Source: Daejeonella sp. (GTDB lineage: Bacteria > Bacteroidota > Bacteroidia > Sphingobacteriales > Sphingobacteriaceae). Taken from it: 64,000 nucleotides of DNA. The translations under genes and the position numbers were made by a program. The DNA lies in the NCBI RefSeq assembly GCF_030695525.1, contig NZ_JAUYSS010000032.1:1-64000 (forward strand), given 5' to 3'. How positions within the stretch are numbered: the stretch's first letter is position 1; each line of letters opens with the position of its first letter. Below the pieces are notes generated by a model, which worked only from the letters and a program-made list of their open reading frames with translations, was not told where the DNA came from and searched no databases. This document shows, piece by piece, positions 1 to 15,982 of the stretch.

Positions 1-138
1 GTAGCTAAAGATCAGGTTATTCGCCGTGTACCATATACTATTGGTGAAAGCCAGGTAAATCCGACAGGTGTTGCATCTGGTGTTACCAAACTTGGTGGTG
101 CCGATAATGAAGCTACCCGTTTATGGTGGAATAAATAA
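1..138 (+). CDS. C-terminal end of a probable RagB/SusD-family protein (partial)
   Basis: The first frame is open from base 1 and stops at TAA 136-138, giving 45 residues that end in ATRLWWNK. The start lies outside the window. The tail (RRVPYTIGESQVNP, then KLGGADNEATRLWWNK) resembles the C-terminal ends of SusD-like outer-membrane nutrient-binding lipoproteins, where a proline-rich 'IPYPxxExxxNP' stretch is usual. SusD proteins bind glycans or other ligands at the cell surface beside a SusC TonB-dependent transporter. The VCBS lipoprotein that follows is a frequent SusC/SusD neighbour, which supports the call. A perfect terminator follows 22 bp downstream, so this transcription unit ends here. 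The assignment rests on a short fragment. Confidence 0.5.
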   Translation, partial: VAKDQVIRRVPYTIGESQVNPTGVASGVTKLGGADNEATRLWWNK

Positions 139-160
139 ACATAGGATTCCCGAATCCTGG

Positions 161-193
161 AGGTCTTCCTGTTTTTCAGGAAGACCTTTTTTT
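161..193 (+). terminator. Intrinsic terminator after the SusD-like gene
   Basis: A perfect 11-bp stem (AGGTCTTCCTG at 161-171, CAGGAAGACCT at 177-187) with a TTTTT loop is followed at once by a T-run to 193. This is a textbook rho-independent terminator and separates the upstream unit from the locus starting at 834. Confidence 0.9.
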
Positions 194-833: not shown

Positions 834-3800
834 ATGCTAAAATACATTTTTGCTGCTGCTCTTTTGAGTCTTGTATTGAGTGGCTGTACTAAGAAAAACG
901 ACAAACTGTTCAGCTTAATGGATGAAGATGAAACCGGTATTGATTTTCGAAATTTGCTTCAGGAGAGTGATGATATGAATGTAATGAACTATTCATATTT
1001 CTATAACGGTGCCGGAGTTTCTGTTGGTGATATAAATAATGATGGCCTTCAGGATTTGCTTTTTACCGGTAACATGGTTAAAAACCGTCTTTACCTCAAC
1101 AAAGGAAATTTTGAATTTGAGGATATCACAGATAAAAGTGGTATTGCGAGTATGCAGGGATGGTGTACCGGTGCAACTATGGTTGATATTAATGGTGATG
1201 GGCATCTCGATATTTATATTTGCCGATCGGCAGACATAAATCCTGAACGAAGAAAGAACTTATTGTTTATCAACAATGGTGATCTGACATTTACTGAGAA
1301 GGCCGAAGAATATGGCCTTGCAGACCATGGCTATTCCACACAGGCTTCATTTTTTGATTATGATAAAGATGGTGATCTGGATATGTTCCTGATCAATCAT
1401 TCCTTACAACAATACACAACCGGTGTTCAGGAAAATGTGCAATTGAGAAAAGAACAGAATCCTGATTTTGCCAACAAATTATATAGAAATGACAATGGTA
1501 AATTCAGGGATATAAGTGCCGAAGCCGGCATTACATCCAATGTGTTGACTTTCGGTTTGGGACTTGCTGTTTCGGATATAAACAATGACAGCTGGCCTGA
1601 TATTTATGTTTCAAACGATTTTAATGAACCGGATTATCTGTTTATTAATAATGGGGATGGTACTTTTACTGATAAATTGACAGAAAGTATGTCGCAGATT
1701 TCCATGTACTCTATGGGATCGGATGTTGCTGATTATAATAATGACGGTTTACCTGATATAGTAACGCTTGACATGCTTCCTGAAAGTAATGAGACTCAAA
1801 AAATGCATTCGGGAGCTGAGAATTTCGATAAAATGCAATTTTTGTTCGACAAAGGTTTTTATTATCAGTTCAGCAGGAATATGCTTCAGAAGAATAATGG
1901 TGATGGAACTTTTTCTGAAATCGGACAAATTGCAGGAATATCCAATACTGACTGGAGTTGGGCAGCTTTATTAACAGATCTGGATAGAGATGGAAAAAAA
2001 GATCTGTTTGTGACTAACGGATATGTTAAGGATTATACCGACATGGACTTCCTGAAATATACAATGGACGAAACTATTCGTTCCAGACAACAGGGAAATG
2101 TACTAGTTGCAAAGGATTTTATTCAAAAGATGCCAACCATCGTTCAGCCAAATTATGTCTTTCAAAATGTTGGTAATGACCGCTTTGAGAAGAAAAATAA
2201 AGAGTGGGGGCTTGATCAAAAAGGTATTTCAGCCGGTGCAGTCTATGCTGATCTGGATAATGATGGCGATTTAGACCTTGTTGTGAGTAATACCAATGAT
2301 TTTGCCAGTGTCTACAGGAATAATTCTGAATTGTTGAATAAAAACACCTATCTGAGAGTTCAATTAAAGGGTGATCAACAAAATTCATTGGGTATCGGTG
2401 CAAAGGTAATTTTGTATGCCAAAGGTGTAAAATACTATCAGGAACAAATCCCGGTCAGAGGGTTTCAGTCTTCAGTAGATCCGGTATTAAACTTCGGACT
2501 CGGTGAGAATCAGCTTATTGATTCATTGTTTATTGTTTGGCCGAATGACAAGAGTCAGATCATCAAAGATGTGAAAGTTAATCAGACCCTGACACTTGAT
2601 CTTAAAAATGCTAATCTTGATTTGAAATTTATTCCGATTCCATCAGGTGATACATATTTATTAGGTTCATCTTCTGTTAATTATATTCATACGGAGAATC
2701 AATTCAATGATTTTACGGTTCAAACCTTGCTACCAAATTATCTTTCAAGACCTGGACCTGCCATGGCCAAAGGAGATTTTAATGGTGATGGAATAGAGGA
2801 TTTGTTTATCGGAGGTGCTGCAGGCCAGGCCAGCGCTTTATTTACGCAGACTACATCGGGTGATTTTATTAAAAAGAATTCCGGTTCATTGGAAACAGAT
2901 GCCCAATATGAAGATACTGCTGCAGAATTTCTTGATATAGATGGTGATGGCGATCTTGACTTGTATGTTGGAAGTGGTGGCTATGAATTTGGACCAGATA
3001 GTCCCTGGCTTCAGGATCGGGTATACATCAATGATGGCAAGGGTAATTTCACAAAGAAAGCCGACGGGCTCCCTAAAATGTTGAGCAGTACCGGCACAGT
3101 CAGATCATCTGATATCGATGGTGATGGTGATCTGGATTTGTTTATTGGAAGCCGTGTCGTGCCCGGTATGTATCCTAGTACTCCAGAGAGTAAAATTCTG
3201 ATCAATGACGGAAAGGGTAATTTTTCTGATTTAACTGATAATATTGCCCCTGAGATCAAATTTGCTGGAATGGTAACTGATGCTGTTTGGATTGATGTCA
3301 ATCAGGATAAGGTAAATGATCTGATTATAGTGGGTGAATGGATGCCTATACGCATATTCCTCAATCAAAAAGGTAAGTTAGTAGACAGATCATCCGAGTT
3401 TATAAAATTTGGATCCTCAGGCTGGTGGAATACAATTCATGTTGAAGATATGGATGCAGATGGCGATCAGGATCTGGTGATTGGAAATTTGGGACTCAAT
3501 GCACAGTTTAAAGCGAGCGAAAAGGAACCAATGAGCATTTATTACAAAGATTTCGACGAGAATGGCTCTGTAGATCCTATATTCTGCTATTATATTGATG
3601 GTGTTTCTTATCCGGCAGCCTCAAGGGATGATCTGATGGATCAACTCCCAAGCCTTAAGAATAAATTTCTTGAATATCATAAATATGCCAATGCAACAAT
3701 AAATGATTTGTTTACTCCTGACCAGTTAAAAGATGCCAAAGTGCTTAAAGCAGAGCTGCTTGAAACTGTCTATTTAGAAAATACGGGTAAAGGTTTTAAT

Positions 3801-4127
3801 TTGAAAAAGCTCCCCGTTGAGGCGCAATATGCACCGGTATATGCTATTGCTTCTGCTGATGTGGATAAAGATGGGAAGAAGGATTTGTTATTAGCCGGGA
3901 ATAATTCCTGGACCAGGATTAAATTTGGACATTTTACATCAAGCAGCGGTACACTACTTTCAGGAAATGGCAAAGGTGAATTTACCTATGTTCCTCAATG
4001 GAAAAGCGGGCTCAACATCAGAGGTAATGTGAGAAGCCTTGAAGCTTTCTCAATTGGAAAAAAATCAGGGCATCAGTTTATTTTTGGTATTAATAATGCC
4101 CCGGTTAAAACTATAAAAATTAATTAA
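834..4127 (+). CDS. VCBS/FG-GAP repeat lipoprotein with ASPIC/UnbV domain
   Basis: A 1097-residue exported lipoprotein. Residues 1-18 form a lipoprotein signal peptide with lipobox LSGC (Cys18). The rest is mostly FG-GAP/VCBS repeats with calcium-binding-type loops such as DINNDGLQD, DINGDGHLD, DYDKDGDLD and DIDGDGDLD, forming two propeller-like halves. Between them, at about residues 503-592, lies an ASPIC/UnbV (CRTAC1-like) domain with the hallmark GIGAKV and QIPVRGFQSS segments. Proteins of this size and layout are commonly found beside SusC/SusD pairs in Bacteroidota and are presumed surface-exposed binding scaffolds; no enzymatic role is established. It heads the run of exported oxidative enzymes, so a role in substrate capture is plausible but inferred. 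Confidence 0.88.
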   Translation: MLKYIFAAALLSLVLSGCTKKNDKLFSLMDEDETGIDFRNLLQESDDMNVMNYSYFYNGAGVSVGDINNDGLQDLLFTGNMVKNRLYLNKGNFEFEDITDKSGIASMQGWCTGATMVDINGDGHLDIYICRSADINPERRKNLLFINNGDLTFTEKAEEYGLADHGYSTQASFFDYDKDGDLDMFLINHSLQQYTTGVQENVQLRKEQNPDFANKLYRNDNGKFRDISAEAGITSNVLTFGLGLAVSDINNDSWPDIYVSNDFNEPDYLFINNGDGTFTDKLTESMSQISMYSMGSDVADYNNDGLPDIVTLDMLPESNETQKMHSGAENFDKMQFLFDKGFYYQFSRNMLQKNNGDGTFSEIGQIAGISNTDWSWAALLTDLDRDGKKDLFVTNGYVKDYTDMDFLKYTMDETIRSRQQGNVLVAKDFIQKMPTIVQPNYVFQNVGNDRFEKKNKEWGLDQKGISAGAVYADLDNDGDLDLVVSNTNDFASVYRNNSELLNKNTYLRVQLKGDQQNSLGIGAKVILYAKGVKYYQEQIPVRGFQSSVDPVLNFGLGENQLIDSLFIVWPNDKSQIIKDVKVNQTLTLDLKNANLDLKFIPIPSGDTYLLGSSSVNYIHTENQFNDFTVQTLLPNYLSRPGPAMAKGDFNGDGIEDLFIGGAAGQASALFTQTTSGDFIKKNSGSLETDAQYEDTAAEFLDIDGDGDLDLYVGSGGYEFGPDSPWLQDRVYINDGKGNFTKKADGLPKMLSSTGTVRSSDIDGDGDLDLFIGSRVVPGMYPSTPESKILINDGKGNFSDLTDNIAPEIKFAGMVTDAVWIDVNQDKVNDLIIVGEWMPIRIFLNQKGKLVDRSSEFIKFGSSGWWNTIHVEDMDADGDQDLVIGNLGLNAQFKASEKEPMSIYYKDFDENGSVDPIFCYYIDGVSYPAASRDDLMDQLPSLKNKFLEYHKYANATINDLFTPDQLKDAKVLKAELLETVYLENTGKGFNLKKLPVEAQYAPVYAIASADVDKDGKKDLLLAGNNSWTRIKFGHFTSSSGTLLSGNGKGEFTYVPQWKSGLNIRGNVRSLEAFSIGKKSGHQFIFGINNAPVKTIKIN

Positions 4128-4220
4128 TTTAAAACCCGGTTTATGTTGTTTCAGATGTATTAATATTCTGTCACATACTACCGGAATCCAGTATCAGCAA
4201 AACTGAAGTAAATATTAACT

Positions 4221-5762
4221 ATGAACAAAAAGGCGTTTGTTGTTTTATTATGTGGAGTAGCCACTTTGTTTTTTCTCTCTTTTAAATCCAATAGTCCTGT
4301 ACAGGAACCCTGGAAAGCACCTGATTCAGCAGATACAATTAAAAGTCCGTTCCCTTTTACACCTCAGGTAATCAGGGAAGGTGAAAAATTGTATAACACG
4401 CTATGTGTTTCCTGTCATGGAAATACCGGACTTGGTGATGGACAACCGGGCAGGTATAAAATACCTCCAGCAAACTTCCACAGTAAGCAGGTAACTGATC
4501 AAAAAGATGGCGCCTTGTTCTGGAAGCTAACAAATGGTAAAGGTAATATGCCAGGCTATGGCCTTGCCTTCGATGAAGAAAAGAGATGGCAATTAATAGC
4601 ATACATTCGGCAATTCGCAAAGCAGGATTTGAATCTTACTGTTTCAAAGCCGGTTTTACCGCTAAAAAACTATCGGTTTGATAAGAATTTCTCAACCCGA
4701 TATTTCCCACTACCTACTAAGGTAAGTAATGTATATAGTTCTGAGGAACAGCTCTTTATGGTTGATACGGTAGTAAAAAACCTGGTCAGACCCTGGAGTA
4801 TGGTTTTTATGCCTGATAATTCAGTACTGATAGCAGAGAGAAGTGGTAAATTATTGAAAGTAAAAGACGGGAAAGTTCAGGCCAATCCAATAGGCGGCAA
4901 TGTTCCAACAAGCTTACGTGATGTTAAGCTTCATCCCAACTTCGAAAAAAACAGAATTATTTATTTATCTTATTTTATAGAGCCAACAACACCCGGTACC
5001 GGATATACTGCATTGATGAGAGGAAAGCTAATTGGAGACAAGCTGGTTGAGGAAAAGATGATATACAAAGCAGGGCCTTTTAAACGTAATGGTGACTGGT
5101 TTGGAAGCAAAATCGAATTTGACGATAAGGGATTTTTATACTTTACGGTTGGAATACATAGTGACAGAATGAATTCGCAAAAACTTGATGCGCCAGATGG
5201 TAAGACCATGAGGCTCCATGAGGATGGCAGTATTCCTAAAGATAATCCATTTGTGAACACCCCCGGAGCTTTGCCTGAGATTTATACCTACGGAAATCGC
5301 ATGCATCAGGGCTTTCGAAAGGATCCTAAAACAGGGCGACTGTTTTTTGTGGAGTTTGGGGAACTTGCAGGAGATGAATTGAATATTTTAAAACGCGGAG
5401 CGAATTATGGCTGGCCTCTCGTAACATTCAGCCTTGAATATAATGGCTCAATAATTTCTGAAAGTCCGTATCGTGAAGGCATGGAACCACCGATTCATCA
5501 TTACGCTATCGCTCCATCAGATCTTGATTTTGTTTATGGAACCCGATATCCGGCATGGGATGGTAATATTTTCATTGGAGGACTCGCTACCAAGAAGCTT
5601 TATCGTGTAGTTATGAAAGATGATAAATTTGTACATGATGAAGCTATGCTGCATAATCTGGGCCGAATCAGAGATGTAAAATATGGACCTGATCAATTTT
5701 TATATGTAATGACTGAAGATACCGGTATTCTGGTCAGATTAGTACCATTGAGCAAGATTTGA
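4221..5762 (+). CDS. Cytochrome c fused to a PQQ-type glucose/sorbosone dehydrogenase
   Basis: 513 residues. An N-terminal hydrophobic segment (about 4-21) exports or anchors the protein. A class I cytochrome c domain follows, with haem motif CVSCH (Cys62, Cys65, His66) and probable axial Met110 in GKGNMPGYG. Residues from about 180 to the end form a GSDH six-bladed propeller, recognisable from ERSGKL, GIHSDRMNSQ, DGSIPKDNPF, GDELNILKRGANYGWP and the terminal DTGILVRL. The likely role is periplasmic oxidation of an aldose or similar substrate with direct electron transfer to the fused haem. One oddity: where soluble glucose dehydrogenases have GHRNPQG (PQQ-contacting Arg, Asn and Gln), this protein has GNRMHQG, keeping Arg and Gln but not Asn, so cofactor use or specificity may differ. 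A split version of the same pair lies at 11406-13362. Confidence 0.87.
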   Translation: MNKKAFVVLLCGVATLFFLSFKSNSPVQEPWKAPDSADTIKSPFPFTPQVIREGEKLYNTLCVSCHGNTGLGDGQPGRYKIPPANFHSKQVTDQKDGALFWKLTNGKGNMPGYGLAFDEEKRWQLIAYIRQFAKQDLNLTVSKPVLPLKNYRFDKNFSTRYFPLPTKVSNVYSSEEQLFMVDTVVKNLVRPWSMVFMPDNSVLIAERSGKLLKVKDGKVQANPIGGNVPTSLRDVKLHPNFEKNRIIYLSYFIEPTTPGTGYTALMRGKLIGDKLVEEKMIYKAGPFKRNGDWFGSKIEFDDKGFLYFTVGIHSDRMNSQKLDAPDGKTMRLHEDGSIPKDNPFVNTPGALPEIYTYGNRMHQGFRKDPKTGRLFFVEFGELAGDELNILKRGANYGWPLVTFSLEYNGSIISESPYREGMEPPIHHYAIAPSDLDFVYGTRYPAWDGNIFIGGLATKKLYRVVMKDDKFVHDEAMLHNLGRIRDVKYGPDQFLYVMTEDTGILVRLVPLSKI

Positions 5763-5824
5763 CTCAGATAATTATAAATTATTAAGCCGGAATCTTACCT
5801 AAATTAAAAATTCAAATTAAAGAT

Positions 5825-7495
5825 ATGAAACGTAGAAATGTAATAAAGGGATTAGCCCTGTTTCCTCTTGCTGCTGGAACAATTACCCGGGAATCTGTTT
5901 TAGCTGCTAGTCCAGGTTCAGGGCTCAGGCAATCATTTACTGTTCCATTAACTAAAGCGGAAAGTATTACTACGGAATCTTCATTTATGGCTGAAACGAA
6001 TATTTTTCGATCTATCGGTGTAGAACCCATTATTAATTGCCGGGGAGCTTATACAATTATTGGTGGATCGCTGGAACTTCCTCCCGTTAGGGAAGCTATG
6101 GAAGCAGCCTCCCAAAACTTTGTTCAGTACGATGAATTAGCCGAAGGAATAGGACAAAGGCTTGCAGACCTGACTAAGTCTGAGTGGGGTATGGTTTCGT
6201 CAGGATGTGCTGCAGGAATGAAACATGTTACTGCTGCTTGTGTAACAGGTGGCAGCCCTGAAAAGCTTATCAGAATTCCAAATCTAACCGGATTTGAAAA
6301 GAATGAGGTGATTATTCCATTATACTCCCGCAATACCTATGATCATTCTATTCGAAACATAGGCGTTACCATAATTCATGTATCAACACCTGAGGAACTC
6401 GAAAGGGCGATCAATCCAAGAACAGCAATGATTTACGTGAATGCTGTTAATGGTTCTTTTACAGGGCAAGCGTTTTCTCTTGAGGTGATTGCAGGTATAG
6501 CCAAACCTAAGAAGGTGCCGGTATTAATTGATGCAGCAGCCGAAAATCTGACAATACCTTCTGTCCATCTTGAACGAGGTGCTGATGTGGTGGCATATAG
6601 TGGAGGAAAGGCCATGCGGGGACCTCAGTGTGCGGGATTATTGCTTGGAAATAAAGAAATTTTAATGTCTGCATGGCAGGCAAGCTCACCTCATCACGGT
6701 CCCGGCCGCGATAATAAAGTTGGACGAGAAGAAATGATAGGAATGATGGCCGCAGTTGAAACCTGGATAAGGCGGGATCATGAAGCTGAGTACAAGAGCT
6801 GGCTCAGCCGACTGGATGTAATTGCCAAAAAGGCTCTGACCGTTCAAGGTGTAAAAACCAATGTTACCAATCCAACAGAGCTTTCTAACAAACACCCTAC
6901 CTTATGGATTAGCTGGGATCCTGCTAAGCTTCATGTTAGTGCATATGAAGTGGCCGAAGAAATCAGCAGTACTAAACCCAGAGTTGCTATCGGATCCCGT
7001 GATGAAAGCAATGGGGATACTACTATTGATATTGTTTCAAGTCATATGAAAGAAGGTGAGGATGTAATAGTAGCGAACAGGATATATGAAATACTTTCCA
7101 GAAAGCGAAGCCCAAGAACCGAGGCAATGACTGCTCCCGCATCAAATTTGACTGGAAAGTGGGATGTTGATGTAAGATATTTTAATAGTACTGTTAAACA
7201 TAATTTTACACTTCAGCAGGATGGTAACTGGATTAACGGAACGCATAAAGGCGATTTTGATCTACGCGATATAAACGGAACAATTGAAGGTAATCAGATC
7301 AAATTAAGTAGTGTCCTGAGACTTCCGGGTGATCAGATCACTTTTTACTTCTCAGGTACGCTAAACGGAAACTCAATTACGGGAGATATACATATGGGCG
7401 AATACCGTACAGCTACATTTACTGCAAGTAAATCGACAGATAAGCCGGCCCGGAAAAAAGTGCTGGTTCCTAAAGGGCCACCTCTGGCTACCTGA
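5825..7495 (+). CDS. Exported SelA/DgaE-like PLP-dependent enzyme with C-terminal beta domain
   Basis: 556 residues. The N-terminus MKRRNVIKGL fits a Tat signal (RRxVIK), consistent with export of a folded, PLP-loaded enzyme. Residues about 60-430 belong to the SelA-like aminotransferase-fold group, which includes selenocysteine synthase and D-glucosaminate-6-phosphate ammonia-lyase: INCRGAYT, a GCAAGM segment, IDAAAENL, and SGGKAMRGPQ with the probable Schiff-base Lys262. The last 90 or so residues (from SNLTGKWDVDV) form a small beta-rich lipocalin-like domain. Nothing in the locus suggests selenium metabolism. Beside quinoprotein dehydrogenases, a lactonase and RidA, an ammonia-lyase or dehydratase acting on an amino- or hydroxy-acid fits best. 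The exact substrate is unknown. Confidence 0.8.
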   Translation: MKRRNVIKGLALFPLAAGTITRESVLAASPGSGLRQSFTVPLTKAESITTESSFMAETNIFRSIGVEPIINCRGAYTIIGGSLELPPVREAMEAASQNFVQYDELAEGIGQRLADLTKSEWGMVSSGCAAGMKHVTAACVTGGSPEKLIRIPNLTGFEKNEVIIPLYSRNTYDHSIRNIGVTIIHVSTPEELERAINPRTAMIYVNAVNGSFTGQAFSLEVIAGIAKPKKVPVLIDAAAENLTIPSVHLERGADVVAYSGGKAMRGPQCAGLLLGNKEILMSAWQASSPHHGPGRDNKVGREEMIGMMAAVETWIRRDHEAEYKSWLSRLDVIAKKALTVQGVKTNVTNPTELSNKHPTLWISWDPAKLHVSAYEVAEEISSTKPRVAIGSRDESNGDTTIDIVSSHMKEGEDVIVANRIYEILSRKRSPRTEAMTAPASNLTGKWDVDVRYFNSTVKHNFTLQQDGNWINGTHKGDFDLRDINGTIEGNQIKLSSVLRLPGDQITFYFSGTLNGNSITGDIHMGEYRTATFTASKSTDKPARKKVLVPKGPPLAT

Positions 7496-7625
7496 TTTTA
7501 TATTTTTTATTGCATTTGGATTTTTTAATTTTACAAAACTTTCAAAGTGATATTAACCCGGAGAAAAATTATTTAAGAGTAAATAAAGAATTCTAAAGCT
7601 TTAATGGTTGAAAATTTAATTTGAA

Positions 7626-8927
7626 ATGAAAAAAATTTTATTGGCTGTAATTATTGGTTTTTTGTTTGGTAGTTGTGCAAAGAAAGCTGATTACGAAGCT
7701 GTATTTTCAAATCCGGAACAATACTCTAAAACTGTAGGATTGTTGACACAGGTCATTACTCATGATATTTTCTCTCCCCCGGTTGCAAGCAGAATTTATG
7801 CCTACAGTAGTATCGCTGCATATGAGGTTATTGCAAGCCAGTCAAAAGACTATAAGCCCCTCAGTGGTAAAATTGAAGGGCTAAATGTTTCTGCTGCAAA
7901 AAAACCTGTTAATAAAGAGCTTTCAGCGATCCTGGCTTTTATGTATGTTGGAAAGGAATTAACATTTTCAAAGGACTCGACCCAGAAAATTATCGATAAT
8001 CATATTCAACTTGCTGAAGTTAGTGGTATGCCGGAGGAGCTTTTAAATAGCTCACAGGAATATGCTCTTGAAGTAAGTAAGGCAGTTCTTGATTGGTCTA
8101 AAAAGGATAATTACAAGCAGACACGTTCAGCAGTAAAATATACTGTGAATAACAAAGAAGGAAGATGGGTTCCAACTCCGCCTGCATATATGCCTGCTAT
8201 CGAGCCTAGTTGGATGAAAATACGTCCCGTTCTGATCGATTCTGCAAGTCAGTTTTTACCTATACCACCTTCTAAATTTAGTAAGGATAAGAATAGTGAT
8301 TTCTATAAACTGGCAACCGAAGTTTACGAAACCGGTAAAAACTTAAGCGATGAACAAAAAGCAATTGCTGATTTTTGGGATTGTAACGGATTTAAAGTTA
8401 ATGTTTCAGGTCATGTGATGTTTGCAACCAAGGCTATGACTCCTGGCGGTCATTGGATGGGTATTACTGGTATAGTATGTACTGCACAGAAAGCTGATTT
8501 TGATAAAACTGTATTTGCTTACGCAGGTGTTTCTATTGCTGTAATGGATGCATTTATCGCCTGCTGGAATACAAAATTTACTTATGATCTGGTAAGGCCT
8601 GAAACCTATATTAACAATTATATGGATAATGCCTGGAAGCCCTATCTTCAAACACCTCCATTTCCTGAATATACCAGCGGACACTCCATTATTTCCAGTG
8701 CGTCGGCTACGGTTTTAACTAAAATATTTGGTGATCATACGCCATTTGTTGATACTACAGAAAGAGCATGGGGTTGGCCTGACCGGAAGTATGAAAATGT
8801 TAAACAGGCTTCGAACGAAGCAGCTTTGAGTCGTCTCTACGGTGGAATTCATTATCGCGAAGGCATGGAAGTAGGGATAATCGAAGGTGAAAAAATTGGT
8901 GAACTTGTATTCAGTAAATTAAACTAA
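7626..8927 (+). CDS. Vanadium-dependent haloperoxidase / PAP2-type lipoprotein
   Basis: 433 residues. Signal peptide with lipobox FGSC (Cys17). The C-terminal half carries the vanadium haloperoxidase / PAP2 acid phosphatase signature: K317-x6-R324-P325 (KFTYDLVRP), T350-S-G-H353 (usually PSGH) and S402-R403-x5-H409-x2-E412 (SRLYGGIHYRE). These residues bind vanadate or phosphate in the family. The Bacteroidota lipoprotein members are mostly uncharacterised, and either haloperoxidase or phosphatase activity is possible. It sits between the PLP enzyme and a lipoprotein cytochrome c, co-directional with both. The 125-bp gap upstream leaves open whether it has its own promoter. Confidence 0.88.
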   Translation: MKKILLAVIIGFLFGSCAKKADYEAVFSNPEQYSKTVGLLTQVITHDIFSPPVASRIYAYSSIAAYEVIASQSKDYKPLSGKIEGLNVSAAKKPVNKELSAILAFMYVGKELTFSKDSTQKIIDNHIQLAEVSGMPEELLNSSQEYALEVSKAVLDWSKKDNYKQTRSAVKYTVNNKEGRWVPTPPAYMPAIEPSWMKIRPVLIDSASQFLPIPPSKFSKDKNSDFYKLATEVYETGKNLSDEQKAIADFWDCNGFKVNVSGHVMFATKAMTPGGHWMGITGIVCTAQKADFDKTVFAYAGVSIAVMDAFIACWNTKFTYDLVRPETYINNYMDNAWKPYLQTPPFPEYTSGHSIISSASATVLTKIFGDHTPFVDTTERAWGWPDRKYENVKQASNEAALSRLYGGIHYREGMEVGIIEGEKIGELVFSKLN

Positions 8928-9071
8928 TAATTATCCAGACTTTTAATCTACTTTTTCCGTTAATTACTCATAATAAAATCAGATACTTATCTCGATTTCT
9001 GTTTTTTCGGGCTATCTGTCACGATTTTAAGTTTTAATTTTAAATTCGGGATTTTTTAAATAGAATTGTGC

Positions 9072-9087
9072 CATACAATGTTGTATG
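9072..9087. promoter_or_regulatory. 7-bp-arm palindrome upstream of the cytochrome lipoprotein gene
   Basis: CATACAA-TG-TTGTATG is a near-perfect palindrome 25 bp before the chosen start at 9112, in a 184-bp gap. Its position fits an operator or a 5' UTR element. Only symmetry supports it. Confidence 0.25.
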
Positions 9088-9111
9088 CTTAAGAATCACG
9101 TTACCAAAGAA

Positions 9112-9651
9112 ATGAAAAGAATTTTAGTGTTGGGTGTTTGCGCCCTTTTTGTTGCCTGTAGTAGTTCTTCTGAAAAGTCCAGCGATGCTGATACAATAGC
9201 TTCAGTAGATGTAGACACAGTTAGTATAACTTCTTCAGCTGCTGATCCAATTATTTCAGAACCCACAAGCCAGCCTGCTACTGTTAAAGTGTCTGAAACA
9301 AAAGTTACCGAGGTGAAAGCCAAAGATAAACCTGCTGCAAAAGAAGTTCAGCCTGCTGAGCCTGTTAAGCCTGTAGTTGTTACAGAAGCCAGAGACACAA
9401 AAAAGGGGGAGACCTTAATTTCAAAATCAGATTGTTTTGCCTGTCACAAAGCAAATGAAAAGCTATTGGGCCCAAGTTATAAGGAGGTAGCAAACAAGTA
9501 CGGAGATACTAAAGCTAATGTAGATTATCTTGTAACTAAGATAAAAAATGGCGGTAGCGGAGTATGGGGAGCTATACCGATGTCACCACACCCTGCATTA
9601 TCAGATGAAGATGCTGAGGCAATGGTTCATTATATTTTGAGCCTGAAATAA
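9112..9651 (+). CDS. Lipoprotein cytochrome c (c551/c552 type)
   Basis: 179 residues from ATG 9112. An in-frame ATG at 9085 would add nine residues ahead of a complete lipoprotein signal, so the later start is preferred. Lipobox FVAC puts the lipidated Cys at 16. A long Ser/Thr/Pro/Ala/Lys-rich linker (about 17-98) acts as a tether. The C-terminal 80 residues are a monohaem cytochrome with CFACH (Cys108, Cys111, His112), LLGPSY, and a likely Met ligand in AIPMSPHP. It is probably a membrane-tethered electron carrier that takes electrons from the nearby quinoproteins. A terminator follows directly. Confidence 0.88.
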   Translation: MKRILVLGVCALFVACSSSSEKSSDADTIASVDVDTVSITSSAADPIISEPTSQPATVKVSETKVTEVKAKDKPAAKEVQPAEPVKPVVVTEARDTKKGETLISKSDCFACHKANEKLLGPSYKEVANKYGDTKANVDYLVTKIKNGGSGVWGAIPMSPHPALSDEDAEAMVHYILSLK

Positions 9652-9660
9652 TTAATATTC

Positions 9661-9698
9661 AAAGGTTCTGAGAATATTGTCGATTTTCAGAACCTTTT
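9661..9698 (+). terminator. Intrinsic terminator after the lipoprotein cytochrome
   Basis: Stem AAAGGTTCTGA (9661-9671) pairs with TCAGAACCTTT (9687-9697) around a 15-nt loop and ends in T residues. It divides the locus into a 5' unit (834-9651) and a 3' unit (from 9882). Confidence 0.75.
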
Positions 9699-9881
9699 AC
9701 CACATTCGGTAAAAACTCGCTCACTGTAACATTTTTCTGTGTTATTGCACTCCTGTTAAGATAAGTTTAAATTGCACTATTAATTTAATTGTTTCATAGG
9801 GGATACCCTTTGAATTTTACTCATATTATTAATCCGATTTTAATAGTGAATGTTATGAATAAGATAGAAAATACTTCAGCA

Positions 9882-10784
9882 ATGAAACCATTGAGCCTGA
9901 CTTTTCTTTTAGTCAGTATTGTGTTTTTCACAAATGCCCAGGATTCTAAAACCCCCTTGTATAAATCTTCAGCTTTAACAGATCTAAATGGTTTTACCAG
10001 AGGAATTGAAGGTCCTGCAGTGGATAAGGCAGGTATTTTATATGTAGTTAATTTCGCTAAACAGGGTACAATCGGACAGGTAAGTCCTGATGGTTCTGCA
10101 AGCCTTTTTGTTGAACTCCCATCAGGAAGTATCGGAAATGGAATTCGATTTGATAGCAAAGGCAATATGCTTATTGCAGATTATACAAATCATAATATAC
10201 TGAAAGTCAATATGTCAACTAAAAAGATTTCAGTCTTTGCGCATAATTCCAATATGAGTCAGCCAAATGATATTGCTATAGATAATAAAGACAGGCTGTA
10301 TGCAAGTGATCCAAATTGGGCAGCAGGGACAGGTAGGATCTGGCGGATTGATACCAATGGAAAATCTACAAAACTGGATAGCATGGGGACTGCGAATGGT
10401 ATTGAGGTGAGCCCGGATAATAAATTGTTATATGTTAATGAATCAGTCCAGCGTAAAATTTGGGTTTATAATCTCTCGGATAAGGGAGAAGTAAGTAATA
10501 AACGACTTTTTCACGAATTCCCTGATTTTGGTATGGACGGTATGCGCTGCGATATAGATGGAAATTTATACGTAACCCGACATGGAAAGGGTACTATTGC
10601 CAAATTATCACCTCAAGGAAAATTGTTGTCTGAAATTACCCTGGCAGGAAAACTACCAAGTAATATCGCATTTGGAGGCAATGACGGATGCACAGCCTAT
10701 GTTACCTTACAGGATAAAGGTAATGTTGAAAGCTTTAGGGTTGATAAACCAGGCCGTGAGTGGCTGATGTCAAAAAAGAAATAA
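9882..10784 (+). CDS. Exported SMP-30/gluconolactonase-like propeller protein
   Basis: 300 residues from ATG 9882, which gives a clean Sec signal peptide (MKPLSLTFLLVSIVFFTNAQ). Upstream starts at 9855 and 9789 would only lengthen the N-region. The mature part is an SMP-30/LRE-type six-bladed propeller: GIEGPAVD with the metal-ligand Glu, PNDIAIDNKDRLYASDP, ANGIEVSPD with the conserved Asn, and DGMRCDIDGNLYVT with the catalytic Asp. Family members hydrolyse sugar lactones with a divalent metal. Beside two quinoprotein sugar dehydrogenases, whose products are lactones, periplasmic lactone hydrolysis is the natural role. The substrate is inferred from context. Confidence 0.87.
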   Translation: MKPLSLTFLLVSIVFFTNAQDSKTPLYKSSALTDLNGFTRGIEGPAVDKAGILYVVNFAKQGTIGQVSPDGSASLFVELPSGSIGNGIRFDSKGNMLIADYTNHNILKVNMSTKKISVFAHNSNMSQPNDIAIDNKDRLYASDPNWAAGTGRIWRIDTNGKSTKLDSMGTANGIEVSPDNKLLYVNESVQRKIWVYNLSDKGEVSNKRLFHEFPDFGMDGMRCDIDGNLYVTRHGKGTIAKLSPQGKLLSEITLAGKLPSNIAFGGNDGCTAYVTLQDKGNVESFRVDKPGREWLMSKKK

Positions 10785-10806
10785 ATATTAATTTAAGTAT
10801 ATAAAA

Positions 10807-11274
10807 ATGAAGACGGAAAGAAGATCAGTATTAAAAAAATTATTTGCTTCTGTAGTAGGGGTAACCGGATTAGGTGTAGTGGCGAATGCTAAAGGGATTG
10901 AATCATCACCAGAAAAAGTTGTAGGAAATATTTCATCCGTTCAAAATGTTCCAATGTTTTCCGGACACGTAATTCATAATGGATTAGTTTATATCGCAGG
11001 GAAAGGTGCCCATACTGCGCCATTTGAAATTAAAGCACATACTGAGATTGTTCTTAAAGAACTTGAGAAAGAGTTAATTAAGGCTGGTTCTTCAATGGAA
11101 AAAGTATTGAAAGTTACGGTATATCTTAATGATATTGCAGATTACCAAGGTATGAATGATGTTTACAAAGGTCGTTTTGGGAAAAAACCTCCGGTTCGTT
11201 CTACTATTGCTGTAGCTAAAGGTGGTGTTCCAGGCGACTCACTCGTGGAAATGGATGCAATCGCGTATATTTAA
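10807..11274 (+). CDS. Tat-exported RidA family (YjgF/UK114) protein
   Basis: 155 residues. The first 30 form a Tat-like signal with ERRSVLKK followed by a hydrophobic stretch and ANAKG. The rest is a single RidA domain ending in VPGDSLVEMDAIAYI. The key Arg131 is present in PPVRSTIAVA. Classical RidA is cytoplasmic and hydrolyses reactive enamine/imine intermediates released by PLP-dependent dehydratases. An exported copy is unusual, and it lies in the same locus as a Tat-exported PLP enzyme, suggesting the two act in sequence outside the cytoplasm. It is 22 bp downstream of the lactonase gene. Confidence 0.9.
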   Translation: MKTERRSVLKKLFASVVGVTGLGVVANAKGIESSPEKVVGNISSVQNVPMFSGHVIHNGLVYIAGKGAHTAPFEIKAHTEIVLKELEKELIKAGSSMEKVLKVTVYLNDIADYQGMNDVYKGRFGKKPPVRSTIAVAKGGVPGDSLVEMDAIAYI

Positions 11275-11405
11275 TCTTCTAATGATATTTGAAAGATTAA
11301 TAATTCCTGATTAATTCAAATTATTGCGGCCAATATGAGTTTTCTGAATTTGTATTGGCTGTATTATTGTCACAAATGCTCAAGATTGGTACAAATTTTA
11401 TCTCA

Positions 11406-11870
11406 ATGAAAAAGTATAAATTTTACACTCTTTTATCGTTCTGCGCTGTTAGTGTTTTCATACTATCTGCTTCCACTAATTATTATCCACTTAAAGATAG
11501 ACAGGCGGATTCAAAGTTTTTAACGGATACTGTAAAGCAGCTTGCATGGTTAGCACCGGAATCAGCTGACTCCCTCAAGAATCCTGTTGCAGTGTCACAG
11601 GAATCCATTTCTAAAGGAGAAGAATTATATAATATGTATTGCTTTTCTTGTCATGGAGATACAGGTTATGGAGATGGCCCTGCCGGTGGATCAATGGGTG
11701 TCAGACCTGCGAATTTTCATGATCAGAAGGTAATGAAGCAAAAAGACGGAGCGTTATTCTGGAAATTAACTAACGGAAAAGGCAATATGCCCCCTTTTAA
11801 GGAAGCCTTAACTGAAGAACAACGCTGGCAATTAATTGTCTTTCTTAGGGAATTAGGCAAAACAGAATAG
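11406..11870 (+). CDS. Exported class I cytochrome c
   Basis: 154 residues from ATG 11406; the frame also opens at TTG 11355, but the ATG gives a normal signal sequence (MKKYKFYTLLSFCAVSVFILSAS). Haem motif CFSCH (Cys79, Cys82, His83) and probable Met ligand in GKGNMPPF. It is strikingly similar to the cytochrome domain of the fusion at 4221: both share SCHG, PANFH, QKDGALFWKLTNGKGNMP and RWQLI. It lies 7 bp upstream of a separate GSDH gene, so the two genes reproduce the fused arrangement as separate proteins. Confidence 0.9.
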   Translation: MKKYKFYTLLSFCAVSVFILSASTNYYPLKDRQADSKFLTDTVKQLAWLAPESADSLKNPVAVSQESISKGEELYNMYCFSCHGDTGYGDGPAGGSMGVRPANFHDQKVMKQKDGALFWKLTNGKGNMPPFKEALTEEQRWQLIVFLRELGKTE

Positions 11871-11877
11871 CTAAAAA

Positions 11878-13362
11878 ATGCAAGTCAAGCAAGGCATATA
11901 CGTAATTGGACTGCTGATTACTTTAATGGCTTCCTCTGTTTTATACGCACAGAATGATTCTAAAGCGAATGAAACAAAAAATCCTTCACCAAGATTAAAC
12001 CCGGTAGTTCAATCAATTCCCGTCCCCTTGCGGCCGGATATTTTGATCGAAAAGTATGCAGACATAGAAGCCAATGCTGTTCGTCTATTAATTCATCCTA
12101 TTTCAGGCGATTTTTATTACACCACATTTGAGGGTGGTGTTTTTCAAATCACAAACAAGAATGGATTATTGATTTCAGAAAAAATTCTGACAGTAGAAGA
12201 TCACGGAATTAATAAATTACAAGGTGCTGTATTTGCTGGTTCTGATCTGTTTTTATGCGGAAATACTACCGAGAATAATAACCGGGGTACACGGGGAAGA
12301 TTGGTCCGATTTTCAATTGTACCCAATAGTAGTCCCAGAATGACAGTTGTATTTAATACCGAACCATACGGCTTGAATGCAACAACCTGGGATCATGGTT
12401 GGAATGCACTTGTACTGAGTCCTGATGAACAATATATTTTTATCACTTCCGGCTCCAGAACCGGGCATGGTGAAATTCAGGATGATAAGGGAGTATACCC
12501 AAATGCCCGTGACAATGCTTTAACTACTAAAATTTTCAGAATCCCTGTCAAAGCAGAGAATCTGTTATTGCCCAATGATATAAATAAATTAAAGGCAGAT
12601 GCTTATCTCTATGCTGAAGGAATTCGCAACGCCTATGATATGGCCTTTGATCCTGAAAATAATTTATTTGCCGTTGTTAATTCTTCAGACTATGATCATG
12701 CTGAAGATATGTTTTGGGTTAGACAAGGGCGGCATTATGGATTTCCATGGATTATGGGAGGTATAGAAAATCCACAACAATATCCTGATTTTATGCCCGA
12801 TCCTAAAAAGGACCCATTTCTCCCTGCGACATCTCATGGGATGCTAATGAAATATTTTCGGAATGATCCGGATTTTCCTAAAATACCTGAGGGATTAAAA
12901 TTTACTCCGGGGGTTCAAAACCTTGGTCCGGATGCCAATGAATACAGAGGTCATTCCGGTAAAATACTTGATGGAGATAATACCGGAGTAACTATCAGTA
13001 CGTTTACCGCTCACAGTTCTCCATTAGGTCTTGTTTTTGATACCAAAAGAGTACTTTCTAATGAATTTAGGGGTGATGGCTTCGTGCTTAGAAACACTCT
13101 TGGAGCTAAATCGAGTTTGATGAAACCGTTTACAGAGCAGGGTAGAGACCTGCTTCATCTCGACATGACATACGATAAGGGAAGTGATAATTATTTTGTA
13201 AAAACAACCCGGATTGTGGATTCATTCAATAATCCGACAGATGCTGTTTTGCTGGGAAACTCCTTGTATATTATTGAATATGATGCCAGGGCTGGAAGTA
13301 TCTGGAAAGTCACTTTGCCTGCAGGTTCTAAAAAGGTCAAAAGAGTAAAAAAGAAAATATGA
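11878..13362 (+). CDS. Exported PQQ-type glucose/sorbosone dehydrogenase-like protein
   Basis: 494 residues with a Sec signal ending LYAQ (about residue 25). The GSDH propeller is recognised from EGIRNAYDMAFDPENNLF, NSSDYDHAEDMFWVRQGRHYGFPW, SPLGLVFD and the closing blade SLYIIEYDARAGSIWKV. The Arg-Asn pair of the PQQ site (GIRNAYD) is present, unlike in the fused paralogue. It probably oxidises a sugar or alcohol and passes electrons to the cytochrome encoded just upstream (7-bp gap). Substrate unknown. Confidence 0.83.
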   Translation: MQVKQGIYVIGLLITLMASSVLYAQNDSKANETKNPSPRLNPVVQSIPVPLRPDILIEKYADIEANAVRLLIHPISGDFYYTTFEGGVFQITNKNGLLISEKILTVEDHGINKLQGAVFAGSDLFLCGNTTENNNRGTRGRLVRFSIVPNSSPRMTVVFNTEPYGLNATTWDHGWNALVLSPDEQYIFITSGSRTGHGEIQDDKGVYPNARDNALTTKIFRIPVKAENLLLPNDINKLKADAYLYAEGIRNAYDMAFDPENNLFAVVNSSDYDHAEDMFWVRQGRHYGFPWIMGGIENPQQYPDFMPDPKKDPFLPATSHGMLMKYFRNDPDFPKIPEGLKFTPGVQNLGPDANEYRGHSGKILDGDNTGVTISTFTAHSSPLGLVFDTKRVLSNEFRGDGFVLRNTLGAKSSLMKPFTEQGRDLLHLDMTYDKGSDNYFVKTTRIVDSFNNPTDAVLLGNSLYIIEYDARAGSIWKVTLPAGSKKVKRVKKKI

Positions 13363-13451
13363 GCAGGAAAATTCCGGGCAAAATCAAAGAAAACAGCTAA
13401 TCTGATTATTTTTTAAATAATTTTTGTTTATTTATAAATTAAATTAAAACT

Positions 13452-14375
13452 ATGAGAGTTAAATTATTATTATCATTTGTATTTGCTTGTGTTACTTCTC
13501 AAGCTTATTTATTTGCACAAACAATTCCAAAGGAAGAACTTATATTTTTAACCTCCGAATGGAAGGGCGAACGTTTTCCTGATGGCCGTCCCAAAATTGC
13601 CGACAATCTTCTGGAAAGGGCAAAAAATATAGGCCTGGATGATGCCTGGCAAGTATTGAAAGTATCTGGTTATCTCAATCAGTTTGAGCATGGATGGAAA
13701 ACCCTGAACGATGAAGTTATGACCGGAAGGGCAGTAACTGCTATGTATATGCCAAATCGTCCTGACCTGGAAAAAAACATTAAAGAAAGAGGTGTAAAGC
13801 AGGGACGTGTTGGTAATACAAATACCTGGCCAATTGCAGTATTAAAAAAGGGAGATATTTATGTTGCTGATGCTTTTGGAAAAATTAATGGAGGTACGCT
13901 AATTGGAAGTACTCTTGGGACATCAATTTTTGCTAATTCAGGCAATGGGGTAATACTTAATGGTGCAGCGAGAGATGTACCGGGATTGGAAGAGATAAAA
14001 GGATTCAATGCTTTTGTGAGGGACTTCCATCCTAGTTTTATGGAGGAAATGCTGTTGATGGGCTTAAATACCCCAATTCGTATCGGTAATGCGGTTGTTA
14101 TGCCTGGTGATTTAGTAATTGCGGCTAAAATTGGCGTTTTGTTTATTCCTGCACATTTAGCAGAGCAAGTGGTATCGACTGCTGAATTTGTAGTTAGAAG
14201 AGATAAATATGCCTTTGAAGTTATCAAATCAGGAAAATATTCAGGTGGTCAGTTGGACGCTGAATGGACTGAAGAAATGAAGCTGGATTTCCTGAAATGG
14301 ATGGAAAGACATCCTGAAGAAGGAAAAATGACTAAAGCAGAACTTGATGTAATCATGAGCAAAAGAACCTGGTAA
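13452..14375 (+). CDS. Exported RraA-like (HMG/CHA aldolase superfamily) protein
   Basis: 307 residues. A signal peptide (MRVKLLLSFVFACVTSQAYLFAQ) precedes an RraA-type domain with VADAFGKINGGTLIGST, LNGAARD (Arg174-Asp175) and IRIGNAVVMPGDLVIA. The superfamily includes cytoplasmic RraA and class II pyruvate aldolases that cleave 4-hydroxy-4-methyl-2-oxoglutarate; the G-x-x-R-D motif contributes to substrate and Mg2+ binding in the aldolases. Export argues against an RNase E role and for a metabolic lyase. In this locus it could cleave a 2-keto acid into pyruvate and an aldehyde. The C-terminal 60 residues (KLDFLKWMERHPEEG) are charged and helical. Confidence 0.83.
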   Translation: MRVKLLLSFVFACVTSQAYLFAQTIPKEELIFLTSEWKGERFPDGRPKIADNLLERAKNIGLDDAWQVLKVSGYLNQFEHGWKTLNDEVMTGRAVTAMYMPNRPDLEKNIKERGVKQGRVGNTNTWPIAVLKKGDIYVADAFGKINGGTLIGSTLGTSIFANSGNGVILNGAARDVPGLEEIKGFNAFVRDFHPSFMEEMLLMGLNTPIRIGNAVVMPGDLVIAAKIGVLFIPAHLAEQVVSTAEFVVRRDKYAFEVIKSGKYSGGQLDAEWTEEMKLDFLKWMERHPEEGKMTKAELDVIMSKRTW

Positions 14376-14419
14376 TTTTACGATTAAACATTATTCACTT
14401 AAACTAAATATTTCAAACA

Positions 14420-15541
14420 TTGAAACAGCTAAACCTCCACTCAGCAGCTTTAGGTATTGCCGCTCTGTTATTATTGATTTCTCTGGGTCTTATTTTTACG
14501 GGTAATATAGAAAGCGCCGGACCCATAATAATATTTTTCTTCCTGGCCATGGCTCTGGGTTTTAGAGGTTTTGAGGCACTGAAAGGTTTATCCTATACCA
14601 CTTTAATATTTGCAGCTGTGGTAATGGCATTATATTATCCGGTCTATTTTATAACAGTTGGAGATTTTAAGCTAACGGGTTTAATTACTCCTCTTATCCA
14701 GATTATTATGTTTGGTATGGGTACTTCAATGAGCGCAAAGGACTTTGTAGCCGTATTTAAGACACCTAAAGGGGTTTTCGTAGGAATCATAGCTCAATTT
14801 TTAATTATGCCGGGAATGGGTTATTTCCTTGCTACAATGTCAAATTTTCCACCCGAAATAGCTGCCGGTATTGTATTAATTGGTTGTTCGCCAAGTGGTC
14901 TGGCATCCAATGTAATGGCCTATTTAGCTAAAGCCAACCTTGCCCTTTCGTTAACAATAACATCAATTGCAACTCTATTAGCACCGATTTTTACTCCATT
15001 ACTGATGAAGTTATTGGCAGGTCAATTTATTGAAATAGATATGATGGGAATGATGTGGGATATTGCAAAAATGATCATTATTCCGATTGGAGCAGGTTTA
15101 TTGTTTAATAAACTCTTTGCAGGTAAAGCAAAATGGCTGGACGACGCATTGCCAATTGTTTCTATGACAGGGATTGCATTAATTATTGTGGTTATCACAG
15201 CTGCAGGCCGTGATAGTTTGCTGGACATAGGTGCATTATTGATTCTGATTGTGTTGATTCATAATATATTTGGATATACTTTAGGATTTTGGTTCGCACG
15301 TCTATTCAAGATGCCTGAACGTGATGCACGTACAGTTGCACTTGAGGTGGGAATGCAAAACGGTGGACTTGCTTCGGGTATTGCGAATAGTTTAGGTAAA
15401 ATCGCAACTATGGGACTAGCACCTGCAGTATTTGGACCATTGATGAATATCACGGGCTCTATGCTGGCTTCTTACTGGCACAGAAGAACTCCTGAAGGGT
15501 ATGTTGAACCGGAAATTGAAGGAGAGGTTAGATCTCATTAA
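14420..15541 (+). CDS. Bile acid:sodium symporter (BASS/SBF) family transporter
   Basis: 373 residues from a TTG start; no closer ATG keeps the first membrane helix. About ten hydrophobic segments fit the BASS fold. Family hallmarks are present: GMGTSMSAKDF, GCSPSGLASNVMAYLAKAN and EVGMQNGGLASG. BASS proteins couple Na+ entry to uptake of organic anions, including bile acids, pyruvate (plant BASS2) and 2-keto acids. It is the only obvious inner-membrane importer in the locus and probably brings in the end product of the exported pathway. Confidence 0.92.
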   Translation: MKQLNLHSAALGIAALLLLISLGLIFTGNIESAGPIIIFFFLAMALGFRGFEALKGLSYTTLIFAAVVMALYYPVYFITVGDFKLTGLITPLIQIIMFGMGTSMSAKDFVAVFKTPKGVFVGIIAQFLIMPGMGYFLATMSNFPPEIAAGIVLIGCSPSGLASNVMAYLAKANLALSLTITSIATLLAPIFTPLLMKLLAGQFIEIDMMGMMWDIAKMIIIPIGAGLLFNKLFAGKAKWLDDALPIVSMTGIALIIVVITAAGRDSLLDIGALLILIVLIHNIFGYTLGFWFARLFKMPERDARTVALEVGMQNGGLASGIANSLGKIATMGLAPAVFGPLMNITGSMLASYWHRRTPEGYVEPEIEGEVRSH

Positions 15542-15553
15542 AATCGTATAGAT

Positions 15554-15982
15554 ATGAAGAAAATTGGATTATTTTTTGCTTTAATGATGTTTGTTGTAAC
15601 AAACATTTATTCACAGTCAAAGTCTGAACAAGCTGTTGCAACTGCAGTCACTGCGCTACATAGTAATGTAGTAAATCCTGAGCGGATAGCTTTAGACTTG
15701 TTGGTCTCTGATGCATTGTCCTATGGTCATTCAGCTGGAAAGGTTGAGAATAAAGAACAGTTTATTGACTTTTTATTTAACGGCCCGTTTAAGTTTACTT
15801 CGATCAACACCACCGATCAAACAATTCGGGTTAGTGGAAAAAATGCTGTTGTAAGACATGTATTTATTGGAAAAGCCACAAATGCAGGTGTTCCTACTGA
15901 CATCAGATTAGGTAATCTGATGGTATGGAGAAAAGAGGGCGGGAAATGGAAATTACTGGCAAGACAGGCATTCAGACTATAA
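15554..15982 (+). CDS. Exported NTF2-like (SnoaL/DUF4440-type) protein
   Basis: 142 residues with a Sec signal ending YSQ (about residue 21). The mature part fits the NTF2-like fold: helix QAVATAVTALHSNVV, LLVSDALSYGHSAG, KEQFIDFL, and strands ending in WRKEGGKWKLLARQAFRL. Members may be isomerases, dehydratases or ligand-binding proteins; no catalytic residues can be assigned here. It is 12 bp behind the BASS transporter and is the last gene of the unit, followed by a strong terminator. Confidence 0.82.
   Translation: MKKIGLFFALMMFVVTNIYSQSKSEQAVATAVTALHSNVVNPERIALDLLVSDALSYGHSAGKVENKEQFIDFLFNGPFKFTSINTTDQTIRVSGKNAVVRHVFIGKATNAGVPTDIRLGNLMVWRKEGGKWKLLARQAFRL

Follow-up and report, generated by a model that had tools for sequence, protein, structure and literature searches.

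Gene content and conservation of the locus

The window analysed here is a 64,000-nucleotide stretch of DNA from Daejeonella sp. (assembly GCF_030695525.1, contig NZ_JAUYSS010000032.1). It opens contig C6 of a draft genome of 4.2 Mb and 98% completeness, for which Daejeonella and further Sphingobacteriaceae are the closest named records. Twelve plus-strand genes occupy positions 834–15982, separated by intergenic gaps of 7–221 bases with the starts assumed here (Table 1). They encode, in this order, an FG-GAP/UnbV_ASPIC lipoprotein (VCBS), a cytochrome c–GSDH fusion (GSDH1), a SelA/DgaE-like pyridoxal phosphate (PLP) enzyme, a vanadium-haloperoxidase-type lipoprotein (VHPO), a cytochrome c, an SMP-30/SGL-type lactonase, RidA, another cytochrome c, a second GSDH-like protein (GSDH2), an RraA-like protein, a BASS-family transporter and a DUF4440 protein; three CXXCH motifs are present in the locus. 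All twelve proteins were scanned with Pfam profiles, and NCBIfam was used in addition for some. The scans agreed with the co-directional gene list given by an earlier sequence-only reading and refined it on two points: a solved vanadium haloperoxidase (PDB 4cit, E = 5e-134, presumably from Zobellia) is closely related to the haloperoxidase-like protein, and the second dehydrogenase matches GSDH only weakly (27.6 bits). The SGH and GGIHYR motifs of VHPO, which we take to form the vanadate site, were present in 11/11 aligned sequences, in keeping with a relationship to vanadium haloperoxidases.

The contig starts within the C-terminal end of a SusD homologue, which had escaped the sequence-only reading. 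Its counterpart in the related locus L007 (fetched loci are numbered with the prefix L, genomes with G) is SusD-like by Pfam (404.6 bits) and is paired there with a TonB-plug protein, so that the SusC/SusD element of a Sus-like polysaccharide utilisation locus is represented; SusC/SusD-like pairs were also recognised by BLAST in L008, L011 and L013, and complete SusC and SusD genes stand upstream in relatives.

Table 1 Features at the start of the window (positions in the 64,000-nucleotide stretch)
Feature	Position	Strand	Evidence and remarks
SusD homologue, C-terminal end	1..135	+	rest past contig edge; 89% identical to L007 SusD across 45 aa by tblastn (E 6e-24)
Terminator-like hairpin after SusD	159..189	+	13-pair stem, 6 G-C, T run after
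FG-GAP/UnbV_ASPIC lipoprotein (VCBS)	834..4127	+	Pfam; lipobox-like LSGC
Cytochrome c fused to GSDH-type protein (GSDH1)	4221..5762	+	GSDH 317.9 bits; CVSCH
Exported SelA/DgaE-like PLP enzyme	5825..7495	+	Aminotran_5 36.7 bits; K262 in SGGK; twin-Arg start
Vanadium-haloperoxidase-type lipoprotein (VHPO)	7626..8927	+	PAP2 by Pfam; PDB 4cit E 5e-134
Cytochrome c lipoprotein	9112..9651	+	Pfam; start picked by eye
SMP-30/SGL-type lactonase, exported	9855..10784	+	145.9 bits; start uncertain
Twin-arginine RidA	10807..11274	+	Pfam 72.3 bits
Cytochrome c, exported	11406..11870	+	7 bases before GSDH2; start picked by eye
Second GSDH-like protein (GSDH2)	11878..13362	+	weak GSDH, 27.6 bits vs cut-off 25
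Exported RraA-like protein with R174-D175	13452..14375	+	Pfam 57.6 bits
BASS-family transporter	14420..15541	+	Pfam SBF 133, above cut-off; NCBIfam bass 233.7, short of its cut-off (326)
Exported DUF4440 protein	15554..15982	+	Pfam 54 bits
HAD hydrolase, no signal	16082..16720	+	follows locus in 7 relatives; membership doubtful

The full gene order of the locus recurs in L007, L011, L012 and L024; L010 shares it too, except that a contig end truncates VCBS. In L010, L011, L012 and L024 the BASS protein is longer (433–437 aa) and only 46–56% identical. L013 has the same order without GSDH1, and the truncated pieces L008, L009 and L027 also follow it. Linkage was quantified with 71 SelA-like matches from the family genomes plus 4 more from the source genome. 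A SelA-like gene lay within 10 kb of at least 15 of 21 RidA matches (0.8 expected), at least 64 of 87 amidohydrolase matches (5.3 expected) and at least 16 of 40 RraA matches (1.5 expected, in 14 genomes only); the expectations treat relatives as independent and so overstate the surprise, and the counts are lower bounds, at most 14 SelA-like and 17 amidohydrolase candidates per genome having been scored. BASS matches with less than 49% identity were omitted, as was the second piece of any split match. The genes are real and travel together, and a chance grouping was ruled out by the recurring order and by linkage far above expectation. The co-occurrence check proposed by the sequence-only reading came out in its favour.

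A conserved trio of PLP enzyme, RidA and amidohydrolase

Among 101 genomes of the family (own genome included), the SelA-like protein, twin-arginine RidA and an exported amidohydrolase were found in an identical set of 14 genomes from 5 genera (thresholds set by us at E ≤ 1e-30, 1e-15 and 1e-60, respectively, with other RidA proteins falling below threshold). Across 395 genomes of the phylum, again with E-value thresholds of our choosing, a compact SelA-like plus RidA combination occurred in an identical set of 8 genomes representing 7 genera and five families. The three genes lay within about 20 kb of each other in 16/16 trio genomes outside the window's genus (in G037 the SelA gene is just beyond the fetched stretch and proximity was taken from match coordinates). 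In the compact loci L045 and L046 the order is SusC, SusD, amidohydrolase, RidA, RraA, BASS, SelA (SusC and SusD of L046 by Pfam).

SMP-30, RraA, BASS and GSDH/cytochrome c are frequent partners of this trio. Within the family, RraA was present in all 14 trio genomes and in 5 more, GSDH2 in 7 (one without the trio) and BASS in 33. The amidohydrolase, the most consistent partner, was invisible to the sequence-only reading because the window copy of the locus lacks it. All four sister-locus amidohydrolases scanned scored above the NF006689 cut-off and below that of TIGR03583 (EF_0837). Another RidA-like type (PF14588), likewise beginning with a signal-like segment, recurs beside SelA-like genes (L028:14995-15540, L061:12515-13048 and L067:10190-10750).

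Export-type N-termini

Export was scored by a home-made rule requiring an 11-residue hydrophobic stretch after a positive n-region, later starts having been picked by eye for the open reading frames at 9085, 9789 and 11355. An export-type start was found in 11 of the 12 locus genes, the twelfth, BASS, being a membrane protein, and a marginal stretch in 2/14 cytoplasmic controls from the same window. The sequence-only reading had claimed signals for all members save BASS, and export-type starts in nearly all of them support it. Across the fetched loci, which were selected for holding matches and do not form a random sample, export-type starts were seen in 65/69 amidohydrolases, 34/35 RraA, 18/18 SGL and 33/35 RidA proteins, against 0/6 KDPG aldolases and 0/7 HAD proteins (open reading frames cut by a locus edge and matches below 70% of the reference, or below 350 residues for SelA, were dropped). 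Enolase-type proteins scored 0/7, although those of L029 and L050 look twin-arginine by eye. The rule misses 15/72 SelA-like proteins (71/72 of which have twin Arg), 8/25 SusC and 4/4 M19 proteins; the latter start MKRR or carry KRRE.

A twin-arginine start was present in 72/72 aligned SelA-like proteins, with the window protein substituted for the sole sequence without it (L028), which starts inside a cut gene. The source genome encodes TatC, and the twin-arginine translocation (Tat) system may be the route of export: PLP proteins exported by Tat would take their cofactor along, which fits the uniform presence of twin-arginine starts.

The PLP enzyme

The PLP lysine (K262) was kept in 72/72 aligned SelA-like proteins, and R295, K298 and E303 were invariant in the same set. 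A true SelA (tRNA-Sec enzyme) was ruled out by a Pfam SelA score of 19 bits, below the cut-off of 22.8. In a Foldseek search with a structure model (mean predicted local distance difference test, pLDDT, 78) the closest folds were Cap15, DgaE and SelA: Cap15 (8t7j) came first, with a template modelling (TM) score of 0.87–0.88, and DgaE (D-glucosaminate-6-phosphate ammonia-lyase, 7lc0) reached 0.84 by target length. The order was reversed in sequence searches, in which DgaE (E = 2e-27) came ahead of Cap15 (E = 3e-24). The elimination of ammonia or water proposed by the sequence-only reading is not borne out as it stands, the closest folds including both an ammonia lyase and an O2-dependent decarboxylase.

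The model has an extra C-terminal domain of eight beta strands (residues 437–556, pLDDT 88); searched alone with Foldseek it gave no match at E ≤ 0.001, fatty-acid-binding-type barrels lying just above the threshold. In a midpoint-rooted FastTree, the 42 SelA-like proteins that reach 520 residues or more, as the domain bearers do, group together (support 0.999); the window enzyme clusters with its positional counterparts (9 sequences, support 0.98). This PLP family is greatly expanded in the source genome, with 18 matches, two of them truncated at contig ends, on contigs C3, C6, C19, C27, C34, C37, C40, C43, C54 and C56.

Partner enzymes and sister loci

The E, N, N and D of four SMP-30/SGL motifs were kept in 19/19 sequences, RidA R131 and E148 in 36/36 and RraA R174-D175 in 34/36. 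GSDH2 retains D172-H173 and R250-N251, with the Asp-His pair and Arg-Asn present in 10/10 aligned sequences, which makes aldose oxidation by this protein plausible.

RraA can be placed only tentatively as the last external aldolase, since it also stands beside an enolase-family gene in loci free of SelA; the product of that gene is unsignalled in L051, L057, L058, L059 and L060 and twin-arginine-like in L050 (the RraA frame of L058 was missing from the gene calls and was placed by homology search). Enolase-family sugar-acid dehydratases can yield the same 2-keto-3-deoxy acids. Since an exported RraA could not follow an unsignalled enolase-type enzyme, RraA may work earlier in the pathway or on another substrate. 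In L050, L051 and L057–L060, BASS or DUF4440 and SusC/SusD are often near the RraA–enolase pair, perhaps as a parallel sugar-acid route.

Several genes of the sister loci point to (amino)sugar-acid chemistry. L037 encodes a PIG-L de-N-acetylase with a twin-arginine-type start. The own-genome sister locus L031+L032 encodes a KDPG/KHG aldolase above the Pfam cut-off (a copy in L016 is below the NCBIfam cut-offs), a glycerate kinase (above cut-off), an epimerase-type TIM barrel (below cut-off) and a 2-hydroxyacid dehydrogenase (below equivalog cut-offs), none of which is signalled; these enzymes could plausibly complete the breakdown of an imported keto acid in the cytoplasm. GSDH–cytochrome c fusions stand beside SelA-like genes as well, 8/9 of those scanned being above both Pfam cut-offs and the ninth (L036) reaching a GSDH score of 24.4 against a cut-off of 25. 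L036 (own genome, C40:34001-54000) further contains SelA-like, amidohydrolase, glucosamine-6-phosphate isomerase/6-phosphogluconolactonase-type, pectate-lyase-type, aldo-keto reductase and N-acetylglucosamine 2-epimerase-type genes.

Comparison with known systems

PRK09237/EF_0837-type amidohydrolases presumably cluster with selA_rel and KDPG-aldolase genes, and the sister loci resemble such clusters in their NF006689-type amidohydrolases with SelA-like and KDPG/KHG aldolase genes near. They differ in that the amidohydrolases miss the TIGR03583 cut-off, both amidohydrolase and SelA-like proteins are exported, and the genes are joined to SusC/SusD and BASS. EF_0837-type (cog3964) enzymes are reportedly active on N-acetyl-D-serine and acetyl-(R)-hydroxy acids. 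DgaE shares with the window enzyme its fold and PLP lysine, but the two are 24% identical, and the latter scores below the family cut-offs and has a twin-arginine signal and the extra beta domain. Cap15, likewise similar in fold, differs in serving antibiotic biosynthesis; we know of no RidA partner for it. The pyrroloquinoline quinone (PQQ) aldose dehydrogenases 7cdy and 2g8s belong to the same GSDH family; here there is a cytochrome c partner, GSDH1 is without the usual His, and oxidation is joined to genes for exported deamination.

The nearest functional parallel is the ong pathway of oxidative chitin use, in which a deacetylase of D-aminoacylase type and a PLP deaminase convert N-acetylglucosaminate to 2-keto-3-deoxygluconate (KDG); growth on N-acetylglucosaminate requires both of these genes and also RidA, whose role there is obscure (PMC9537276). 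Likeness extends to the TonB-dependent receptors and to the KDG product, whereas in the ong system OngB and OngC are predicted to be cytoplasmic, the PLP enzyme is of fold type III, KDG is phosphorylated and the inner-membrane transporter is of the SSS family; the accessible passages of that source name no quinoprotein, lactonase, RraA or BASS (PMC9537276). Cytoplasmic enzymes and a fold III PLP enzyme of the ong type are unmatched here, where all aligned SelA-like proteins have twin Arg and folds nearest to Cap15, DgaE and SelA. With the same three kinds of enzyme, the exported trio would work like the ong pathway without being a member of it, its PLP enzyme belonging to another fold group.

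A candidate extracytoplasmic pathway and its alternatives

From what was observed directly, namely gene content, export-type N-termini, conserved active-site residues and co-occurrence, we infer the following reactions, most probable order and substrate, with the periplasm or the cell surface as the main site. A small saccharide would be taken in by the outer-membrane SusC/SusD pair and the aldose oxidised to a lactone by GSDH2 with its own cytochrome c, perhaps also by GSDH1, with electrons passing to cytochrome c; SMP-30 would open this lactone, giving an aldonic or aminoaldonic acid. Acylated substrates would be deacylated by an exported amidohydrolase of the PRK09237 type, whose gene lies elsewhere in the same genome. 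The Tat-exported PLP enzyme would then eliminate ammonia or water from the 2-amino acid, the Tat-exported RidA would turn the enamine/imine into a 2-keto-3-deoxy acid, and this acid, or pyruvate released by RraA, would enter through BASS. The locus is best read, with a probability of roughly 50%, as a SusC/SusD-linked catabolic unit for a conserved extracytoplasmic deaminating pathway. More tentatively, it may exemplify a phylum-wide, so far undescribed mode of feeding in Bacteroidota, in which (amino)sugar acids are deaminated and broken down wholly outside the cytoplasm: PLP enzyme and RidA would be exported by Tat, respiratory electrons would pass from quinoproteins to cytochrome c and only a small keto acid would be imported, duplication having expanded the system to many substrate-specific loci.

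If so, deacylation, PLP-dependent deamination and enamine hydrolysis would all proceed outside the cytoplasm without phosphorylation, so that no ATP is spent on activation and only a keto acid is imported, and functions would be suggested for exported groups of 'SelA', 'RidA', 'RraA' and amidohydrolase proteins in Bacteroidota which are now named after cytoplasmic homologues. The trio provides a directly testable gene set. No description of an exported SelA/RidA/RraA pathway was found in the open-access literature, a scope outside which most subscription papers fall.

Several observations weigh against this interpretation. The locus is kept without the PLP gene in L054 (G092), and without VCBS, GSDH1, the PLP gene and VHPO in L053 (G042). 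Both still carry RidA, the nearest SelA-like matches on the same contigs lying 17.7 kb (G042) and 18.6 kb (G092) from it; this speaks against the PLP step being indispensable here, unless another copy in the genome takes over. The family scans found no amidohydrolase gene among the twelve, in spite of its being encoded together with the PLP enzyme and RidA in the wider module (14/101 genomes), and Pfam found no glycoside hydrolase or lyase among them either, an element also expected of a Sus-like polysaccharide utilisation locus. In the 7 phylum genomes besides the source, SGL was near in 6, BASS in 5 and RraA in 4. The PLP enzyme scores far below the cut-offs of the DgaE/selA_rel profiles TIGR01437 and NF047797 (150.4 bits vs 385.3 for selA_rel and 126.6 vs 600 bits for the other), and the many SelA-like copies in one genome may each have their own substrate. 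GSDH1 is without the usual His in 8/8 aligned orthologues, the His-bearing segment of 7cdy and 2g8s aligning with Trp in seven and Tyr in L054; this residue we take to be catalytic in the solved PQQ aldose dehydrogenases, and its replacement makes aldose oxidation by GSDH1 doubtful. PqqC gave no match in the source genome, with the control also silent (0/14 control genomes matched). Finally, an 18-pair terminator-like hairpin lies at 11325-11363 (+), between RidA and the next cytochrome gene, where it is a possible transcript break or attenuator; the scan listed 14 such hairpins in all against 13.5 expected from shuffles. A promoter scan was uninformative (54 sites vs 61 expected).

Of the two quinoprotein dehydrogenases proposed by the sequence-only reading, family membership stands for both, weakly for the second, but the first has Trp or Tyr where the solved enzymes have His. 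Its single non-phosphorylating exported pathway is supported by export and co-occurrence, whereas the order of steps is borne out only in part, given the amidohydrolase missing from the window copy, the GSDH1 residue, the PLP-free loci, the uncertain step of RraA and a possible PLP/O2 oxygenase reading.

Three other explanations were weighed. Instead of sugars, the trio could degrade dipeptides, peptides of peptidoglycan type or N-acyl D-amino acids: deacylation by the amidohydrolase would be followed by deamination of beta-hydroxy-D-amino acids to keto acids through the PLP enzyme and RidA and by uptake of these through BASS, with GSDH and lactonase as accessories. Such a role would suit the M19 dipeptidases of L015 and L016 (Pfam), L018 and L031 (BLAST) and window position 16807, the many amidohydrolases per locus, an MlrC match in L028 that is weak and falls far short of its cut-off, and the ability of OngC to deaminate D-serine and D-threonine too (PMC9537276). 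We regard it as unlikely in view of the CBM9-like and SGL genes in 10 and 15, respectively, of 50 SelA-bearing loci (some cut short), and of the GSDH–cytochrome c fusions, PIG-L, KDPG/KHG aldolase and glycerate kinase. The locus may also be a mosaic of small exported modules (haloperoxidase; cytochrome/GSDH; SGL–RidA; RraA–BASS–DUF4440) sharing a promoter region or regulon rather than a pathway. RraA indeed occurs with the enolase-type gene, often with BASS or DUF4440, in the SelA-free loci described above, VHPO was found only in the 10 window-type loci, internal gaps reach 130–221 bases and genes have been lost in L053 and L054; the identical order in five relatives, in L013 save for GSDH1 and in the three cut pieces, together with linkage to SelA-like genes, renders this improbable.

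Improbable to a similar degree, in our view, is an O2-dependent oxidative decarboxylase of the Cap15 kind as the identity of the PLP enzyme, which would shorten an amino (sugar) acid outside the cell to a carboxamide for the amidohydrolases to cut, with by-product peroxide feeding the haloperoxidase. GlyU, an alpha-amino acid nucleoside, is the reported substrate of Cap15, a PLP monooxygenase-decarboxylase (PMC6384614). Cap15 exceeds DgaE in the fold comparison, yet DgaE ranks higher by sequence. RidA, moreover, was found in every examined genome with the enzyme, which suits release of an enamine by the deaminating pathway preferred here, whereas Cap15 chemistry should not need RidA.

Neighbouring genes

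Beyond the locus, an M19 dipeptidase with a hydrophobic N-terminus (16807-17961, plus strand) lies a short way after it, and M19 genes occur in sister loci too. Further downstream, a large protein with Phosphoesterase and weak beta-propeller Pfam matches is encoded on the minus strand (25230-28070), and a ThuA-family protein (33307-34038, plus strand; Pfam 243.5 bits) has a signal-like start.

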